From Spinellus fusiger (taxonomy: Eukaryota > Mucoromycota > Mucoromycetes > Mucorales > Phycomycetaceae): 64,000 bases of DNA. The translations under genes and the position numbers were made by a program. How positions within the stretch are numbered: position 1 is the stretch's first letter; the number at the start of each line of letters is the position of its first letter. Positions 1-64,000 of this stretch are shown here, in pieces. The stretch spans positions 124,001-188,000 of the forward strand of contig JALLLS010000002.1 in NCBI GenBank assembly GCA_025094145.1. Reading direction: 5' to 3'. Under the pieces are notes generated by a model. The model made no database searches. It was given only the letters and a program-made list of their open reading frames with translations, and was not told where the DNA came from.

Positions 1-929
1 TAATGATAAACGAACAAAATGTATTGATACTACCTAAAACATATTCTAGATGTGTAAGTATAAATATCAAAAAGAAAATCATCATTAATACATGACTACA
101 GCTCGGATAAACAAACCAAGATTTTATTAAAGTACACTTTTCTGACTACTTTTTCAAATATGGATCATATCATTCTATCAGATTTTTTTTAAAGAAAAAA
201 TAGAATCCTTGATGGTGGTAATGTTGCTTATTCTTCTCTTTATAATAGATGCTATGGCTCATGCTGTGGTTATACAGTGTGTTTAGTAAAAGATAAGTTT
301 ACTACTTTAATTAATTGGATCACTTATATCTTATTCTATTGCTACACAGACAGCCCTCTTTCTAAAATAAACCATGATCTCTCTTTTCAATGATATGTTT
401 AGCTTGATACCTTTATAATATTCTCTAGATACCAATAGCTAAAGTAGAAAATATCAATTGCTAATTATTTTTAATCATAAACAAATATTCTCCTAAATTA
501 TACACTTTGTCGTCTTTGGGTTTAACCAAAGGAAATCCGGACAGTTCAAAGAGTAAACAAAGTCTGATCTTTATTGATGGGTCTTTCTCTCTTCTTTTAT
601 ACTTTTCTAATTGATATTTTCTACTAATAAAAGCTATGGAAAGGCCCCTGTTACTACAGTATCATCCCTGAGATATACGCCTTGCTACTAACTCATCTTC
701 TACCATGTGGTCCCGTTTAGGCAATTTGTGTTTCTGTTGACTGGGATGATCGATAGTTCTGTTTATGGAAATATGATTATCCGACAACTTTTGTAAATTA
801 TATATTTCGGTATTTCAAGCTATTCTGAGAAAGACAGCCATTTTCTCACTGCTTTTTACTAAAAAAAATAAGTATAATAATCTCCGACTATGTAATGAGG
901 ATTAGTAGTTCAAGGTCCAAATCTCTTAG
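1..929. other. AT-rich intergenic DNA, no gene seen
   Basis: No open frame with coding character, no RNA gene and no TIR were seen. The only recognisable content is a short dispersed repeat near 486-600, listed separately. The stretch ends at the TA dinucleotide (930-931) that flanks the first Fanzor-type element. Confidence 0.5.
486..600. repeat. short dispersed repeat fragment, copy 1
   Basis: The stretch starting TTTGTCGTCTTTGG and running through CCAAAGGAAATCC to TTCTTTTATACT recurs with moderate identity at about 25379-25500, in the same orientation. No coding frame or terminal repeat is visible, so the class is unknown. Confidence 0.45.
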
Positions 930-931
930 TA

Positions 932-1138
932 CACACCTAAAGATCTTTAGGGTATAAAAATAAATAGTCGAGATACAATTGTTTAAAAATGACAAATCGA
1001 TTTGAAAAGGTGTGAAAATAGATTGAGACATATTTATGTTATTTTTTAAACAAATAAAGATTATTATGTAGATTTACCTGTAAATATCTGAATCCTGGAG
1101 GAAACTACCTTCGATGTAGCGATATATAACATGAATAT
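932..1138 (-). other. conserved 3' flank of the Fanzor-type gene, candidate guide-RNA region
   Basis: About 200 bp between the nuclease stop codon and the element tip is kept in all three nuclease-bearing copies (932-1138, 11290-11508, 63110-63315), although it is non-coding. In TnpB and Fanzor systems the guide (omega) RNA is made from just this position, overlapping or following the 3' end of the gene and ending at the element boundary. It contains a perfect 16 bp palindrome at its outer end (CCTAAAGATCTTTAGG, 937-952). That it is a guide RNA is an inference from position and conservation only. Confidence 0.3.
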
Positions 1139-1801
1139 CTATTCTTCTCGACAGAAGAGAGTTTGTCTGTGGTGACCATTCAAAGCCTCTTCTGTAATTG
1201 TATAGATATTCTTTTCAGCATTCACATCCCTGTTCCAAACAATTCCACAACTTTGGCAAGCGCGGATACTGTTGAAATTTACTAATACCTCGGTGAGATT
1301 ACGTGCGCTACAATTGTGGCGGATCTTTAGAACAAAAAAAGAAAACAGAGTAACTGTTAGAAGAGCTTTTCATATTGGGTAAGAGGTCAATCAGGTTTAC
1401 TCTCGATGTAAAGAACTCATCAACATCAACCATAAGAAGATCTCCATCTTTTTGTCTCTTTTTTTCAATGATTGATATAAAATTCTCGTCAAACCAACAC
1501 GATGACCTTTAAACTTGACAGCATCTTTTACCTTTATTCCTGTGCCATAAGCAACGACTGGTAGTTTGGTAGGATCATACTCCAATCCTTTTAGGTGCCA
1601 ATACCCCTTTTCAATAATAAAACAGTAAAAATAATTAGTTTGAGATGTATTAACGTACTCTCTGTCTGTTTGTGTCGCATTACCCTTGCACTGGCACCTT
1701 CTTTTTGCCTTTGTCTTTGTAACGGATTCATTGGGTTTATTATAGTAAAAGAATATAAAATAGAAACTGACTAACATGTCAGACATAATAAACATACACA
1801 A
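1139..1801 (-). pseudogene. TnpB/Fanzor-type RNA-guided nuclease, C-terminal half, broken (copy 1)
   Basis: Read on the minus strand, the frame gives a basic segment, then LPVVAYGTG, a KGHRVGL segment, VDVDEFFTSR, and after an intron NCSARNL...CQSCGIVWNRDVNAEKNI and a stop at 1139-1141. E-x2-TS is the RuvC-II motif, the paired CxxC the zinc ribbon, and NRDVNAEKN the RuvC-III motif of TnpB and Fanzor proteins. The intron (1325-1400, 76 nt, GTAAAC...AAAG) joins TSR to I-x-HNC. Two defects are visible: a 2 nt frameshift near 1455-1465 relative to copy 2, and Cys to Arg at the first zinc ligand (RHNC, where copy 3 has CHNC). I could not find RuvC-I or the N-terminus next to this piece. Known family: eukaryotic homologues of IS605/IS607 TnpB, captured by several DNA transposon classes. 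Confidence 0.85.
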
Positions 1802-2045
1802 ACACTCACCAGATCACAACTGTTGGTTTATATGCCAGACAAAGGCAAACAAGTTAAAGAGGATGGAAGTTATGAAGAACAACAGACAGTGTGGTTGGCA
1901 GGTATTAATATCTGAGCAGAAAAGAATAAATCGAATTTTCACAAGTCATTTGCTTAATCAGAACTACCAAAGTAATGCAGACTATAACAACATTCTAGAA
2001 AGAAAAGAATTGCTTAAAGAACAGTTGCCTAGTTACCCGTTGTGA

Positions 2046-2800
2046 TCAAATCGTGTGTTGTGTTCCTGTTCATGTACTCTCTTTGATTTCCCTAGACTAG
2101 CCTTTGTATCCAATACTCTATTTCGTTGTCCCTGCTAGAGACCAAACTACTACCAATTCATCTCTCTAGTAGTCCTGTTGATAACCATAGTGCCCTTTAT
2201 TGCAAAATAAAGGATATATTTTTACAAAGTTAAATAGTATATATCTTGAGGCTACTTTCATATATATCTCATCAAGCTATAAGGATCAAAGTTATACAAT
2301 AATAACATCTCAGTGAATTCAGAGATGGATTTCCTCCTCTTGTTCTATGTATGTTTCAAGGGAAGAGAGAAACCTTATTTACAATAAAATCACTTTATGG
2401 AATTCTATGGCCTTGAAATACATGACCAAGATTATACACACTATAGAACAGAACAGTTACCCTTCCCAGTCTGCTTGGATGTTCTATGAAGACCATATCT
2501 ATTGATTGAGAACAGGAAATTAGACAAATTCATAGTAAAAAAAAAGAAATACCAAACTAATATAAAAGTTTAGTTATCTACATCTTTAATAAAATAGACT
2601 TTGATCCAAATAGCTTCCTAGAGTATAAACAAGATAATCTTTAGGAACTTGAGTAGCTGACTGTTTCTTATTCTCGACTTGTTTTTTTGGTTGGTTAATG
2701 TGTTTGAAAAGAACCTTCTCACTGTCTGTCTGTTTTAGCATTGACTATGAACTGTGTAATTAAACACTATAAAGTTGGATAAAAGGAAGAGGTAAACCTG
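2046..2800. other. internal segment of element copy 1, no assigned gene
   Basis: This stretch is not shared with the other element copies in the window. A plus-strand frame runs up to 2045 (from about 1776) and shorter plus-strand frames follow around 2390-2510, but none matches a family I recognise. It may be a decayed insertion inside the element. Confidence 0.35.
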
Positions 2801-2866
2801 ACATTGCAACTCAATCACTGAATTTATTGTTTAACATAGTTTGTTATCCATAAGCCCACAATATTT

Positions 2867-3088
2867 TCAGCATAACATTGATTGAGAAAGATTTATTATA
2901 GAACACACTGAATCAACTTTAGTGGTCATTGTCCATAAAATAGAACCAAACTTACTTATATTAAGAACATTATAGCCATTTATTGACTCAGTATTCATAA
3001 TCACCTCAATTATCTCATTGTAACTGGTATCAACAATAGTACTTAATGATAACAAGATATTGTTTCTAATACTGGACTTTAGGCTCAA
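2867..3088 (-). pseudogene. conserved minus-strand frame in element tail, possible N-terminal exon of the Fanzor-type gene
   Basis: A 73-codon minus-strand frame contains LNISKFGSILWTMTTKV. The matching stretch of copy 2 (about 12515-12690) keeps LNISEFGSILWTITTRV in the same frame, with stops elsewhere, so the frame looks once coding. It lies upstream of, and in the same orientation as, the Fanzor-type gene. In copy 2 it is followed, after a stretch ending in CAG that could be an intron, by the minus-strand frame covering 12218-12420. Belonging to the nuclease is an inference from order and orientation; the segment itself carries no motif I recognise. Confidence 0.4.
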
Positions 3089-3310
3089 GGCAAATAGAGT
3101 GTGAATTGTTTGACTTGTGAATTTTATGAGTGGAGGCTAATGAATGCATCACTAAAATAATAGATGAAACATTATTATTTGTTTTGATATTCCCCTCCTT
3201 TTGTTATTTCTCACACTGTCTATACAACTTAACACCCAAGTACTTTTCAAGATGAGCATAAGTGAGCAAGTTAATATGCTATTATTAACAAAGAAAAACA
3301 ATAGAGGGAG

Positions 3311-3535
3311 GTGATAGACACTACCAAGGACTATTCTAGTGATAAAAAGGTAAGCAGTGTCTTCATCTGGGCTATGGCTTATTCTAATCCACAAGACACT
3401 CATTGTATTGTTATTAGGCAATTAAAGACTCCTTTCAAGTCAGTCTTAGGTGGTCTTCTATACTGTCTAGGGTCTCTAGGGTATACTCCTGAGCTTATTT
3501 ATCTATCTCCCAAGGATAAAGCACAAGGCCTTTAG
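3311..3535 (+). CDS. 74-aa conserved ORF in element tail, unknown function
   Basis: The ORF begins MIDTTKDYS and ends SPKDKAQGL. An uninterrupted homologue of the same length occurs at 46154-46378 in another copy of the same tail, differing at about ten residues. The opposite strand has many stops here, so the plus strand is the coding one. A GTAAGC after codon 15 could be a splice donor, so it may be one exon of something larger. I do not recognise the family. In the copies at 8058 and 11290 the corresponding frame is degraded (ends like PLKNKSQVI). It may be a remnant of a second element protein. Confidence 0.35.
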   Translation: MIDTTKDYSSDKKVSSVFIWAMAYSNPQDTHCIVIRQLKTPFKSVLGGLLYCLGSLGYTPELIYLSPKDKAQGL

Positions 3536-3813
3536 GGTGTGGATTCTATTTCTATAAGGAAATTTACTTAAGCAGTAGCTACAGTCATAATATTCATTAG
3601 CTATATTATTATAATAAACAATTTTATTCATAAACAATATATTCTATTGATAATATAATTTGATAGTAAGATATCCACAAAAAGAAATAATTATTTGGAT
3701 ATCCGCAAACCTTTTGATTTTAAACAGCTTTTCATATAAGGGCAAAACCGCGTTGTGACATAAAACGAAGGTTGTATCACTGCTTCAAAGCCAGAAGAAT
3801 CTTTGGGTGTGTA

Positions 3814-5653
3814 GAAAGCCAACAAAAAATTAATTTTAATTTTACTGCTCAAGTAGTTTTTTACTTGATTAGTTTAGGCTACATACTAGGCAATACTAGG
3901 AAATATTATTATTAGTATTATTATTAACAATACTATCAGTATTATTTATATATAAATATATAAATATATTATTGAAAGGTACATATTTATATTCATAATG
4001 TGAAAATATACATTTTATGTAACCAGGTAAGTAGCAGCTCATGGCCAATTGCCTCATGAGCCTATTTACCTTGGACCCTGATATTCGGATTAATAAAACT
4101 CCGGTGACTTTGTAACTGTCACCTCGAGGCAAAATGCTTGTCTGCCTTTTTCCTGAAAGCTACTATGGAAATACTTTTTCCGATGACCTGTTTAAACAAG
4201 GTGGTTTTATTTAAGCAACCCCCTGAAGAGCATATCTCTTCTTCTATAGTTCCTATATTGTTCTGTTTAGGTTAAAGTATCTGTAATTTTTCACTCGACA
4301 GACCGTAGGTATCTTTCAGCCATTTACAAAGAATACCGACCATTTGCCATTAACTATTATATAAATAGAGTTAATTATGAATAGGTTACTTCTCATATAA
4401 AATATTAAGAGCCTATAGTAGCCTTAAATATACTTTATTTTGGGATGTCTAGCCTTCGAGTTGTTTTATTCTTTTTTATTCTTTTTGCAAATGTCACACC
4501 ATAAGAAGGTATCTTTCTATGGCTTATCCTACGGATAAATTGCCACTATGTAGTTATGTCTCATCTGCTTACTTGAGGAGATTGAGATGCACTTAATTTT
4601 GTCCTCATTTACTAATGTAATGGTGGCAGATCTCACAAGCACATTTCATATTACGGGGTTTTATTTCTGCCCAACGAATAATACCCGGCAAAACCGAGAC
4701 ATCAATATAGCCATTAATGATTTTTTTTTGTTTTTTTTATATTAATAATATTGGTCTCTATTTATTGAATTGATCAAAAGACTTATCAAAAAATAAGATA
4801 AAAAGATAATAATAATAATAATTTATATTTATAAACTAATACAGGTCAATATATTCTCCTTATTTTTTTTATCTCTACTTAATGTAATAAAATCATCAAT
4901 AAGTTACTCAATTCAAAATTCATTGATGATATTTTTATTATAAATCTTCTGGTTGCACGAGAACTTCCTTTTTTATCACAGTTCTTCGTACTTGTGAAAT
5001 TCAGCAACTGTGTTTAGTGTTTATGCATGCATTTTGAAGTTTATGAAAATAGAAACACGTCGATGTTGACCGTGGTAAAGGTACATTATATCTCTGAGAA
5101 TTTCAGAGCATGAGAAAGTAAATAAGCTCTTTTAAAGCAATGATTACATAAACTGTGGCTTTGCCTCTTTCCATGGGTTCCAGTTTACTATTAAAAGAAG
5201 AGGAGTCTTGTGCTGGCAGTATGTTACGTATGTGCCTAGTAGTTAATTAACAGGAAAGGAAATGAGTTGGAAAGGAAACCACTGGTTGGTAATTACACAG
5301 TTTAAAATTAGTAACAATAGATCCTATGTGTTAGTTTGCGTAGTTTCTTATCAGTTGACACATATCCATACATAGCAATTGAAATGTAGCCCAAGTACTT
5401 TACCTGATGTTTTATAATAAAAATAGTAAATAATAATACTAATAATGTCGGTAAATAATAAGTATAGTGAGACTCCAGTCACTAATACCCTATGAACTAA
5501 AGAAAGACAGATCATAAAGCGATTTAATCCTTTTAAGGCCAATTTATCTTACCCAATTAAGCGGGAATCTCAAACTAAATAAAGTACACTCGACCTTGAC
5601 TTGAACCTCTTCTTCACTTCACCTCTTTTTCTCTTTTATTCACTCCATTAACA
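3814..5653. other. AT-rich intergenic DNA
   Basis: No supported gene. There are low-complexity ATT/AAT runs around 3900-3970 and 4735-4830. The short frames here lack coding character. The last 80 bp before 5654 is C/T-rich (CTTCTTCACTTCACCTC), as is common just upstream of fungal start codons. Confidence 0.5.
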
Positions 5654-8057: not shown

Positions 8058-9199
8058 CACACCAGGAGATTTTTGGGATATATAAGATATCCTGAGAATA
8101 AAATCACAATATTCTTATGATTGGCTAATGTTTTTTAAAATGCCTTTTCGCTGTCTAAATGAGCTATTTCAAACTTTATTGCCTGTTTAAGCAATGGCTA
8201 TTGACTTTGCAATTAAAAAGTATAGAATTGGCTGTAAAGATAAGAAATAGAACCAGAATCACTCCAAAATTACAACTCAGTCATTGAGTTTATTGTTTAA
8301 CATAATGTGTTATCCTTAAGCCCACAGTATTTGCAGTATAACACTGCTTAAGAAAGATATATTATAGGACTCACACGGAATTAACTCTAGTGGTTATTGT
8401 CCATAAAATAGAACCAAACTCACTTATGTTAAGAGCAGTATAGATATTCATTGGATCAATATTCATAATCACTTTAACAGCTAACTCATTGTAACTGTTC
8501 TCAATAATAGTACTTAGTTCCTACTAAGTATTAGAGATAATACTATCCTTTAAGCCCAAGACAAATAGAGTGTGAATTGTTTGACTTGTTTGACTTGTGG
8601 ATTTTATGAGTGGAGGCTAATGAATGCATCACTAAAATAATAGATGAAACATTATTATTTGTTTTGATATTCTCCTCTTTTTTTATTTCTCACATTGTCC
8701 ATACAACTTAACACTCAAGTACTTGTCAAGATAAGCATAACTAAGTAAAGTAATTAGTGTCTTTATCCAAGCTTGAGCTTATTGTAATCTAAAAGACACT
8801 CATTGTATTTTTTTTTTGTTAAGTAGAGGCTTTCAGGTCAGTTCCAGGTGATATTTTCTTCCCTCTATACTGACCATGGTGTCTAGGGTATACTCCTGAG
8901 CATAGTTATCTACCTCTCAAGAACAAATCACAAGTAATTTAGGGTATAGATTCTATTGCTATGAGGAAATTTACTTATGCAGTGGCTATAGTCATACTAT
9001 AGTATTAGCTATATTATTATAGTAACTAATATATTTTTATTGATAATACAATTTTATATTGAGGTATCCACAAAAAGAAATAAAAATTTGGATACTTGCA
9101 AACCTTTGATTTTAAAGGAGCTCTCCATAAGAGAATCATTTGCATTATTTAAAAGGAATGTGTGTTACCTCTTGAAAGCCAGAAAAGTCTCCTGGTGTG
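8058..9199. mobile_element. MITE-like deletion derivative of the Fanzor-type element family
   Basis: Flanked by TA (8056-8057 and 9200-9201). The left tip is CACACCAGGAGATTTTTGGG and the right tip CTCCTGGTGTG. It has the left tip and the tail of the family but no nuclease sequence, and is 1142 bp long. Positions 8291-9199 align without net gaps to 12426-13334 and look almost identical, so one arose recently from the other or they were homogenised. It encodes no intact protein and would need a transposase in trans. Confidence 0.75.
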
Positions 9200-11289: not shown

Positions 11290-13334
11290 CACACCCAAAG
11301 ATCTTTAGGGTATAAAAATAAATAGTCGAAATACAATTGTTTAAAAATGACAAATCGATTTGAAAAGGTGTGAAAATAAATTAAGACATATTCATGTTAG
11401 TTTTTTAAATAAAGATTATTATGTAGATCCATCTGTAAATATCTGAATCCTGGAGGAAACCACCTTCGATGTAACGATATGATATAATATGAATACGAAT
11501 AAGAAGATTTATTCTTCTCGACAGAAAGGAGCTGGTCTGTGGTGACTATTCAAAGCCTCTTCTGCAATTGTATAGATATTCTTTTCAGCATTCATATTCC
11601 TGTTCCAAACAATTCCATAACCTTGGCAAGCGTGGATACTGTTGAAATTTACTAATACCTTGGTGAGATTATGTGTGCTACAAGTGTGGCAGATCTTGAG
11701 AACAAAAAACAAAACAAAACAAAAAACTATTAGAAGAGCTTTGCATATTAGGTGAGAGATCAATCCTGCTTACCCTTGATGTAAGGAACTCATCGATATC
11801 AACTAGAAGATGATCTCCATCTTTTTGTCTTTTCTTCAATGATTGATGTAAAAATCTTGTCAAACCCTCTTGATTCATTCTTTGTGTTGTTTGTTTTTCT
11901 TTTCATGTAAGTGGAGAGTCTCATGTATACAGGTGGATATTTTTTGTCTACCCGTCTATCTTGAGTCCTTTCAAGTCAAAGACTGTATTGAATAGATATA
12001 GATTCTCTTGGTAAGTGCTTTTTGATTTTAAACCAGATAGCAGTGGAAGATTTTTCAAATCTATTATTATGAATCTCCACTTTAAGGAAGGTACTGGAGA
12101 CAATGAGAATAGATGAGGTAGTCTTTCTTGTGAGTTTTGCTATTGATCTTGCTCTTGAGTTTCTTGCGGTTGTGGTTGAGCTTGTCGGTGATTTTAGTGT
12201 AGTTGCTCACATATTCTTTAAATCTCTCTGAGCATTAGAATGTAAGCACCAGGATTAGTAGATAAACGAGCTTCAGTAAATGGTTTAGGAGTATTAATTA
12301 TAGACAGCTCTGTAGATAATGCGTCTATATTAGCCTTTTGATCATTTGAAGTAAGTACAAACCAGGAATTATTTTGAATATAAAAGAAAGAATCGAAGCC
12401 AATGTTACAACTCAATCCCTGCATTTATTGTTTAACATAATGTGTTATCCTTAAGCCCACAGTATTTGCAGTATAACACTGCTTAAGAAAGATATATTAT
12501 AGGACTCACACGGAATTAACTCTAGTGGTTATTGTCCATAAAATAGAACCAAACTCACTTATGTTAAGAGCAGTATAGATATTCATTGGATCAATATTCA
12601 TAATCACTTTAACAGCTAACTCATTGTAACTGTTCTCAATAATAGTACTTAGTTCCTACTAAGTATTAGAGATAATACTATCCTTTAAGCCCAAGACAAA
12701 TAGAGTGTGAATTGTTTGACTTGTTTGACTTGTGGATTTTATGAGTGGAGGCTAATGAATGCATCACTAAAATAATAGATGAAACATTATTATTTGTTTT
12801 GATATTCTCCTCTTTTTTTATTTCTCACATTGTCCATACAACTTAACACTCAAGTACTTGTCAAGATAAGCATAACTAAGTAAAGTAATTAGTGTCTTTA
12901 TCCAAGCTTGAGCTTATTGTAATCTAAAAGACACTCATTGTATTTTTTTTTTGTTAAGTAGAGGCTTTCAGGTCAGTTCCAGGTGATATTTTCTTCCCTC
13001 TATACTGACCATGGTGTCTAGGGTATACTCCTGAGCATAGTTATCTACCTCTCAAGAACAAATCACAAGTAATTTAGGGTATAGATTCTATTGCTATGAG
13101 GAAATTTACTTATGCAGTGGCTATAGTCATACTATAGTATTAGCTATATTATTATAGTAACTAATATATTTTTATTGATAATACAATTTTATATTGAGGT
13201 ATCCACAAAAAGAAATAAAAATTTGGATACTTGCAAACCTTTGATTTTAAAGGAGCTCTCCATAAGAGAATCATTTGCATTATTTAAAAGGAATGTGTGT
13301 TACCTCTTGAAAGCCAGAAAAATCTCCTGGTGTG
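11290..13334 (-). mobile_element. TA-flanked TIR element carrying a Fanzor-type gene, copy 2
   Basis: Bounded by TA at 11288-11289 and 13335-13336. The left tip is CACACCCAAAGATCTTTAGG and the right tip CTCCTGGTGTG, giving an imperfect TIR of about 20 bp. It contains, on the minus strand, both a central and a C-terminal portion of a Fanzor-type gene (11509-12424), followed by the shared tail (12426-13334). At 2045 bp it is the most compact complete copy here and shows the family layout best: tip, 3' flank, nuclease gene reading toward the left end, tail, tip. Confidence 0.78.
11509..12424 (-). pseudogene. TnpB/Fanzor-type RNA-guided nuclease, broken (copy 2)
   Basis: Read on the minus strand from 12424: a frame ending PGAYILMLREI; a very basic helical stretch in another frame (NHNRKKLKSKINSKTHKK); then a frame with LFSLSPVPSLKWRFIIID and FNTVFDLKGLKIDG; then GLTRFLHQSLKKRQKDGD and VDIDEFLTSR. 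After an intron (11695-11773, 79 nt) come ICHTC, ACQGYG and NRNMNAEKN, with the stop at 11509-11511. The central part resembles the pre-RuvC region of Fanzor proteins. It is clearly dead: several frame changes and stops, one zinc Cys replaced by Tyr, and the RuvC-III catalytic Asp replaced by Asn. The stretch between the central and C-terminal parts, where RuvC-I should lie, appears deleted. Confidence 0.82.
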
Positions 13335-63109: not shown

Positions 63110-64000
63110 CACACCAGGAGATCTTTAGGATATAAAAGGAAATAGTCGAAATACAATTGTTTAAGAAATGACATTGATTTGAAAAGGAGCAAAAACAAAT
63201 TAAGATGCATTCATGTTATTTTTTAAACAAATAAAGATTATTATGTAGATTTACCTGTAAATATCTGAATCCCAAAGGAAACCACCTTCGATGTAGCGAT
63301 ATATAATATGAATATCTATTCTTCTCGACAGAAGAGAGTTGGTCTGTGGTGACCATTCAAAGCCTCTTCTGTAATTGTATATATATTCTTTTCAGCATTC
63401 ACATCCCTGTTCCAAACAATTCCACAACTTTGGCAAGCGCGGATACTGTTGAAATTTACTAATACCTCGGTGAGATTATGTGCGCTACAATTGTGGCAGA
63501 TCTTTAGAACAAAAAAAGAAAACAGAGTAGCTGTTAGAAGAGCTTTTCATATTGGGTAAGAGGTCAATCAGGTTTACTCTCGATGTAAAGAACTCATCAA
63601 CATCAACCATAAGAAGATCTCTATCTTTTTGTCTCTTTTTTTCAATGATTGATATAAAATTCTCGTCAAACCAACACGATGACCTTTAAACTTGACAGCA
63701 TCTTTTACCTTTATTCCTGTGCCATAAGCAACGACTGGTAGTTTGGTAGGATCATACTCCAATCCTTTTAGGTGCCAATACCCCTTTTCAATAATAAAAC
63801 AGTAAAAATAATTAGTTTGAGATGTATTAATGTACTCTCTGTCTGTTTGTGTCGTATTACCCTTGCACTGGCACCTTCTTTTTGCCTTTGTCTTTGTAAC
63901 GGATTCATTGGGTTTATTATAGTAAAAGAATATAAAATAGAAACTGACTAACATGTCAGACATAATAAACATACACAAACACTCACCAGATCACAACTGT
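63110..64000 (-). mobile_element. TA-flanked TIR element carrying a Fanzor-type gene, copy 3 (runs off window)
   Basis: The left tip CACACCAGGAGATCTTTAGG follows TA. It matches 932-1822 with essentially one net indel and very high identity. The element continues past the right edge of the window, so its tail and right tip are not seen. It lies in the same orientation as copy 1, 62.2 kb away. Confidence 0.75.
63316..63978 (-). pseudogene. TnpB/Fanzor-type RNA-guided nuclease, C-terminal half (copy 3, 5' end outside window)
   Basis: Same layout as copy 1: LPVVAYGTG, KGHRVGL, then VDVDEFFTSR, an intron (63502-63577, 76 nt), ICHNCSAHNL, ACQSCG, NRDVNAEKN, stop at 63316-63318. Here all four zinc Cys, the RuvC-II Glu and the RuvC-III Asp are kept. 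The 2 nt frameshift in the KK-R region (about 63632-63642) is shared with copy 1, so this copy is also broken unless the shift is bypassed by splicing. Its N-terminal part lies beyond the window. It is the best preserved C-terminal domain of the three. Confidence 0.85.

Follow-up and report, generated by a model that had tools for sequence, protein, structure and literature searches.

The window, by which we mean the whole 64,000-nucleotide stretch of DNA from the mycoparasite Spinellus fusiger (Mucorales) that was analysed, contains three copies of a TA-flanked element with CACACC tips, here called family A, and an element of a sister family, M. The features are listed below; FL64 is the full-length family-A element described further on.

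912..931, minus strand: copy 1, candidate guide stretch beside the 3' end of the element, TA included, predicted from its position
932..3811, minus strand: copy 1, non-autonomous family-A element with CACACC tips; TA at 930-931 and 3812-3813, read directly
932..1006, minus strand: copy 1, candidate omega-RNA scaffold of about 75 nt, placed by analogy with SpuFz1 as reported in PMC10432273
932..1720, minus strand: copy 1, tail in common with full-length Fanzor-A elements (gene 3' end and 3' UTR; element positions 1-789 against loci L062-L065)
1139..1324, minus strand: copy 1, last Fanzor exon, with a degenerate zinc ribbon RHNC..CQSC and NRDVNA; stop codon at 1139-1141
1325..1400, minus strand: copy 1, putative intron, GT donor at 1400, AG acceptor ending at 1325
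1401..1680, minus strand: copy 1, RuvC-II exon, VVAYGTG..KGHRVGLTRILYQSLKK / DLLMVDVDEFFTSR, frameshifted; 5' limit approximate
1717..2204, minus strand: copy 1, block that lies 5' of the Fanzor exons in full-length FL64 (element positions 786-1273 = FL64 2931-2443)
3812..3815, minus strand: copy 1, candidate TAM, TCTA in gene sense, from the family flank statistics
8058..9199, no strand assigned: M-type sister element with a similar right end; 5' flank TTACTA; 3' end with homology to the Fanzor-B 3' end
11290..13334, minus strand: copy 2, family-A left part and M-type right part; 5' flank TCTA
63110..64000, minus strand: copy 3, ending at the window border; 96% identity to copy 1

A preliminary description of this DNA had reported remnants of a TnpB/Fanzor-type nuclease within a TA-flanked element with terminal inverted repeats (TIRs). 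The CACACC tips with TA on both sides were confirmed at 932 and 3811 in copy 1, and likewise at 11290 and 13334 in copy 2. The protein motifs DEFFTS (E-x2-TS), zinc ribbon and NRDVNAEKN do follow each other in this order on the minus strand, split by an intron, but the CxxC pattern is broken in copy 1, where the first zinc pair reads RHNC. The repeats of these features noted at 11509-12424 and 63316-63978 belong to copies 2 and 3 (11290-13334 and 63110 onwards), with damage in both. The second zinc pair of copy 2 is CQGY and its NRD has become NRN, so that a zinc pair and the catalytic D are gone. Copy 3 retains the motifs but is cut by the window end and has a frameshift ahead of the DEFFTS stretch that is common to copies 1 and 3. 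Lesions were thus present in each of the three window copies. A search of the contigs of the genome with the RuvC-I-side exon gave no match anywhere in the window, and the window copies have no RuvC-I exon. In the M-type element (8058..9199) no Fanzor coding part was seen. All three features are dead copies that derive from a Spinellus fusiger Fanzor-A transposon by internal deletion.

Copy 2 is chimeric: the right part (approximately 12389-13334) shows 98.8% identity to positions 8255-9199 of the M-type element 3 kb away, which suggests a recent gene conversion or recombination between the families. On the plus strand, a 93-codon open frame at window positions 1764-2045 runs antisense to the Fanzor gene, and a similar frame of 134 codons is present in FL64; no Pfam match exceeded the cut-off.

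When the loci L076 and L064 are joined, they give FL64, an element of 3,469 bp that has its two tips, a TA at either side and Fanzor exons interrupted by stops. In the full-length elements the Fanzor gene has multiple exons and its 3' end abuts one of the CACACC tips. Comparison of 23 loci to L064 showed that the shared 3' stretch starts at L064 position 2104-2127 in 22 loci and at 2071 in L061; in the coordinates of the window, 22 of the 23 stop within about 25 bp of position 1720, and L061 extends approximately 35-45 bp further. The boundary at L064 2104-2127 corresponds to the terminal 789 bp of the window copy. Copy 1 also has the 5' block and the right end of FL64, and alignment to FL64 indicated that the block at 1717..2204 is joined to position 1720 by a deletion with a 4-bp overlap. 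Because both the 5' block and the right end are shared, the form of about 1.4 kb corresponds to FL64 minus approximately 2.1 kb, with a 4-bp overlap join; it is an internal deletion of the full-length element in which the last 789 bp were kept.

In the derivatives compared, the upstream exons are gone, the last 790 bp or so are retained and the copies lie at TA sites. They retain the ends, the 3' part and the YC flank and are candidate ghost elements. Smaller forms were found as well, namely copies reduced to about the first 97 bp and foldbacks of two left ends, indicating that an element can lose most of its length. The C-terminal exons of the derivatives showed no codon-position bias (28 copies), so these exons are not retained for a protein, and selection at the protein level was rejected for them.

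The family-A left tip had 358 + 338 = 696 genome matches when up to 2 mismatches were allowed, the right-end pattern gave 735 and the left tip of the sister family M gave 637; the backward control was 0 in all three cases. The exons on the RuvC-I side of Fanzor-A yielded 54 candidates, 51 of which were matches, representing about 24 loci and 10 short matches (counted from the list). Family A is therefore large and mostly non-autonomous, with 696 left tips against approximately 24 RuvC-I-side loci. The NCBI database lists family-A copies among the hypothetical proteins of Spinellus fusiger, as partial sequences.

An HMM search had been proposed as a check on the nuclease assignment, and its outcome differed between the genome and the window. 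A genome search with PF07282, the C4 zinc ribbon followed by RD that characterises Fanzor1, produced 457 first-look candidates; of the 150 that were scored, 147 exceeded the Pfam cut-off, 2 of them only with their neighbours in frame. The window exon alone stayed below it (23.9 bits, E = 4.8e-5; cut-off 26.3). Longer copies at L062-L065 contain RuvC-I (GVDPDR/GVDLGR), RuvC-II (VDVDE..), the zinc ribbon and RDVNAS in order, each copy being damaged somewhere. A family-A profile, built from 17 members and relatives from Spinellus, Mucor, Cokeromyces, Rhizopus, Basidiobolus and others, had SpuFz1 as its best PDB match (E = 0.0019), aligned at the RuvC-I motif DPN, and the best NCBIfam match of P0001 was guided_TnpB (E = 2.8e-4, far under its cut-off). 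Single family-A sequences gave no significant Fanzor1 match in the PDB, and a comparison of the family-A profile with Fanzor-B, the second Fanzor family described below, by hhalign was not significant. The latter result and the low score of the window exon would fit a zinc ribbon that came from an unrelated protein family, but such an origin is highly improbable given the ordered RuvC-I, RuvC-II and zinc ribbon of the longer copies, the SpuFz1 match of the profile and the guided_TnpB match, far under its cut-off as it is. The evidence that family A encodes a Fanzor is good but not overwhelming.

Two elements that had first been counted as M, L118 and L119, encode parts of another Fanzor1, designated Fanzor-B; L118 has the RuvC-I exon of Fanzor-B and a B-type 3' end. 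A complete Fanzor-B element is present at L140, with tips from 17 to 3918 (gene sense) and a 479-aa open exon containing IDPGRRD and LIDEFKTS. The Fanzor-B exon aligned to PpFz1 (E = 6.4e-128), SpuFz1 (1.3e-44) and GtFz1 (2.6e-7), which makes Fanzor-B a candidate nuclease. A search for relatives of Fanzor-B in the genome gave 407 candidates, of which 150 were scored. The right ends of the families are similar: FL64 shows 84.9% identity to L119 over 106 bp and 74.8% to L118 over 115 bp. Three Fanzor1-like matches with 58-61% identity to Fanzor-B and open frames of 550-663 aa, at G000:C2:336734, C110:855150 and C121:236853, may be intact. The prediction that this genome holds a Fanzor-bearing, TA-flanked TIR family was thus borne out by the 24 or so RuvC-I-side Fanzor-A loci, the complete 3,469-bp element and the second family. 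The accompanying expectation of intact copies elsewhere held only in part; there are longer copies and the 479-aa open exon of Fanzor-B, but L062-L065 are each damaged and FL64 contains stops.

The elements have TIRs and a TA target-site duplication, as Tc1/mariner elements do, and we tentatively place them in this superfamily on the basis of the TA flanks and of the precedent reported in PMC3627910. By eye, FL64 contains no open frame of at least 80 aa that resembles a transposase. Upstream of the exon in L140 lies an HTH-like fragment with sub-threshold matches to HTH_23, the Sleeping Beauty HTH, the IS630 transposase and unrelated HTH regulators. A DDE_3 search of the genome gave 1544 first-look candidates, including Tc1/mariner-like transposases, some with open frames of 440-495 aa. 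Among the 12 of 174 DDE_3 matches that were examined (L049-L058, L060 and L074), several lie in or beside elements with CACACC tips, and none was seen to be bounded by such tips; these transposases are not supported as autonomous partners. L052, L056, L057 and L074 are example loci of the Tc1/mariner-like transposases, and the ends of L056 and L057 read CACCTTTTTCGGAAAG.

At the 3' end of the element, diversity in the last 75 alignment columns was 0.079, against 0.105 and 0.144 in the two adjacent blocks. These columns include the TIR, so low diversity alone is no proof of an RNA. No stable or covarying RNA fold was detected at the 3' end (z-scores from -0.57 to 1.80 in 7 sequences) and an Rfam search of window positions 500-4200 gave no match; a conserved RNA structure at this end is thus not supported.

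We then compared the flanks in gene sense, that is, the bases before the TA at the 5' end of each element. In a set of tips classed by a fixed rule, YC preceded the TA in 36 of the 48 family-A elements, 4 of the 20 M elements, counted as M only when shorter than 1.8 kb, and none of the 13 family-B elements (A versus M, p = 3.8e-5). TTAC was found in 8/13 B, 0/48 A and 0/20 M elements (B versus A, p = 4e-7), and C at -3 in 39/48 A against 5/20 M (p = 1.9e-5), both arms of an inverted pair on contig C90 being counted in A. The set comprises 195 of 200 listed right tips, 5 being dropped because their TA was changed, and the lists gave the first 100 of 735 and the first 100 of 441 matches. A class could be given to 84 tips according to whichever listed left tip or gene match lay closest, and 111 of the 195 were left unclassed (YC in 56, TTAC in 11). 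The gene matches used for this purpose were most of the PF07282 matches and, for Fanzor-B, relatives with at least 69% identity. Class assignment therefore uses the tips, the gene matches and the length, with a minority of the elements read from end to end. The second tip set alone gave C at -3 in 20/23 A and 2/7 M elements (p = 0.007). Separately fetched flanks had C in 12/14 A and 7/19 M elements (p = 0.011), windows with no clean tip, no TA or a duplicate arm having been excluded (6 of 25 in M and 1 of 15 in A). From another batch of flanks, one duplicate and one arm of the C90 pair were excluded.

In a set in which both sides were read, and which overlaps the fixed-rule set through a common tip list, family A had YC on the gene-5' side in 35/50 and on the other side in 21/100 (p = 9e-9), and C at -3 in 42/50 against 49/100. 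This set excludes L029 and L046 and includes L005 and L042, whose right tips are damaged; leaving out the latter two gives C in 40/48. The two sides of M did not differ (YC 8/36 versus 12/96, p = 0.18); M (n = 36) in this set still included L118, L119 and one 3.2-kb element. At the 7,766 TA sites of the window, the background was 19% for C, 10.6% for YC and 0.37% for TTAC. The C content of 49/100 at the other flank of family A, against this 19%, indicates that part of the C reflects a two-sided site preference. By eye, 18 sites selected for TTAC were unrelated beyond TTAC, which points to separate insertions and to nothing more, since the sites had been picked for this motif.

Statistically, the counts show that the gene-5' flank is mostly YCTA in family A and mostly TTACTA in family B, and neither in M. 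The pattern has exceptions. TTAC is absent in 5 of the 13 B elements; the flanks of other B matches read ATAC, AGAC, GTAG, AAAG or TCTA. The Fanzor-B derivative L118 has a YC flank (TGTC) and falls outside the 13, as it had no match listed there in the search for Fanzor-B relatives; with L118 added, B has TTAC in 8/14 and YC in 1/14, still different from A (p = 9e-7 and 7e-6, respectively). Three elements with M tips are longer than 1.8 kb, were kept apart from the classes and all have YC; one is L118 and the contents of the other two are unread. When all three are counted as M, YC rises to 7/23 (A versus M, p = 6e-4). M is an imperfect control because it shares 3'-end homology with Fanzor-B. 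It lacks TTAC except in the window copy, and an element with a Fanzor-B-like 3' end yet no TTAC means either that the M RNA no longer works or that the model set out below is incomplete. Tips reading AGGA and CAAA were each found next to TTAC as well as next to YC.

Retention of elements through RNA-guided cleavage of the empty sites has been published for TnpB. For Fanzor, such retention is proposed in the discussion section of PMC10432273, a paper which also reports that in Spizellomyces punctatus CA is conserved upstream of the 5' IR of SpuFz1 and ghost loci and that the measured TAM is CATA. The Spinellus motifs occupy the same position as this CA and end in TA, and their occurrence at the expected TAM site suggests that Fanzor helps the elements to persist. 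We consider it probable that the flank motif is a natural TAM record left by RNA-guided retention, including the following steps as a whole. Families A, B and M would be moved by a transposase in trans, which was not found. The 3' end of the element would make the guide RNA, with the flank beyond the 3' end as the guide. After excision, the empty site would offer both the TAM and a match to the guide, Fanzor would cut it, and repair from a copy still carrying the element would restore the element at the cut site. Copies at TAM sites would thus be retained and copies at other sites lost, and deletion derivatives would rely on Fanzor made elsewhere. The fullest statement would have each of the two Fanzor families marked by a TAM of its own among the insertions, the survival of a copy determined by RNA-guided cutting of empty sites, and hundreds of derivatives served by Fanzor in trans; we regard it as an almost evenly balanced proposition. 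The predicted TAMs are YCTA for family A and TTAC/TTACTA for family B.

The flank motifs could instead stem from transposases, with A, B and M moved by enzymes that differ in their one-sided preferences and Fanzor uninvolved. A two-sided site preference does exist, as the C-rich other flank of family A indicates, and no transposase with these tips was found. However, the three families resemble each other in right ends and TA sites, and the motif is family-specific: A and B have different motifs beside similar right ends, M has neither, and the AGGA and CAAA tips do not travel with one motif. Transposase preference alone is thus not the natural reading, and as the upstream motif of the same kind in S. 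punctatus is a measured TAM (PMC10432273), we think this origin rather unlikely. Decay of the ordinary MITE-like type, in which a functionless Fanzor 3' piece hitchhikes in a non-autonomous element, agrees with the absence of codon constraint in the C-terminal exons and with the 97-bp and foldback copies, but leaves the one-sided, family-specific flanks unexplained; we judge it unlikely. It is very unlikely that TTAC belongs to the family-B element itself, with TTACTACACACC as its 5' end, and is no flank motif. The exactness of TTAC in most B copies (8/13) would agree with this, but families with similar ends lack TTAC, L119 and L118 are flanked by TA at both ends with no duplication beyond it, the remaining B flanks diverge, and the YC of family A varies as a site preference would. 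The similar right ends and TA sites of the two Fanzor families and of M, in which no Fanzor gene was detected, allow an effect of the nuclease to be separated from that of the transposase by sequence alone. The fullest statement of retention by Fanzor, the reading that we prefer, would if true amount to natural evidence, at population scale, of the role of eukaryotic Fanzors, whose biological function is described as little known in PMC10711439.

Fanzor1 elements with ghosts are a known kind of system. The Spu-1/SpuFz1 element likewise has a Fanzor1 gene between inverted repeats, many Fz-less ghosts and conserved bases 5' of the element (PMC10432273), and the same source gives 42 loci with full or partial Fz and 134 ghosts for S. 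punctatus. As far as that account goes, Spinellus differs in having two Fanzor families and a third family with similar right ends and differing flank motifs, in its higher copy number and in the many derivatives that still have two Fanzor exons. The Fanzor-B exon aligns over almost all of its own length to PpFz1 from Parasitella parasitica, a mycoparasite (PMC11423790; PDB 9cf0); the TAM reported there is ATN, whereas the predominant Fanzor-B flank is TTAC(TA). The Fanzor1 elements PUl-1 and PUl-4 in PMC3627910 resemble those of Spinellus, with Mariner-like TIRs, TA TSDs, Fanzor only and no transposase. That paper treats elements of Mucor, Rhizopus and Phycomyces, and the Mucorales elements ROr, PBl and MCi are given as MuDr-like with 9-bp TSDs or as unclassified, unlike the TA-flanked Spinellus elements. 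In the sections of PMC3627910 consulted, a flank motif is discussed for the Helitron-type CRe elements and none is noticed for the TA-flanked ones. Within the open-licence literature, no paper matched for Fanzor with Mucoromycota or for the Spinellus fusiger genome and, as far as these papers go, comparing two Fanzor families and a sister family inside a single genome is new.

Similar-scoring copies of several transposon families were often inverted on one contig, and direct pairs looked rarer by eye. Examples of inverted pairs are C141:37095/52016, C90:297671/298745 and C79:264761/297982. The C141 pair shows 96.5% identity over 1,621 bp; the two C90 arms show 100% identity over 291 bp, and their flanks differ.
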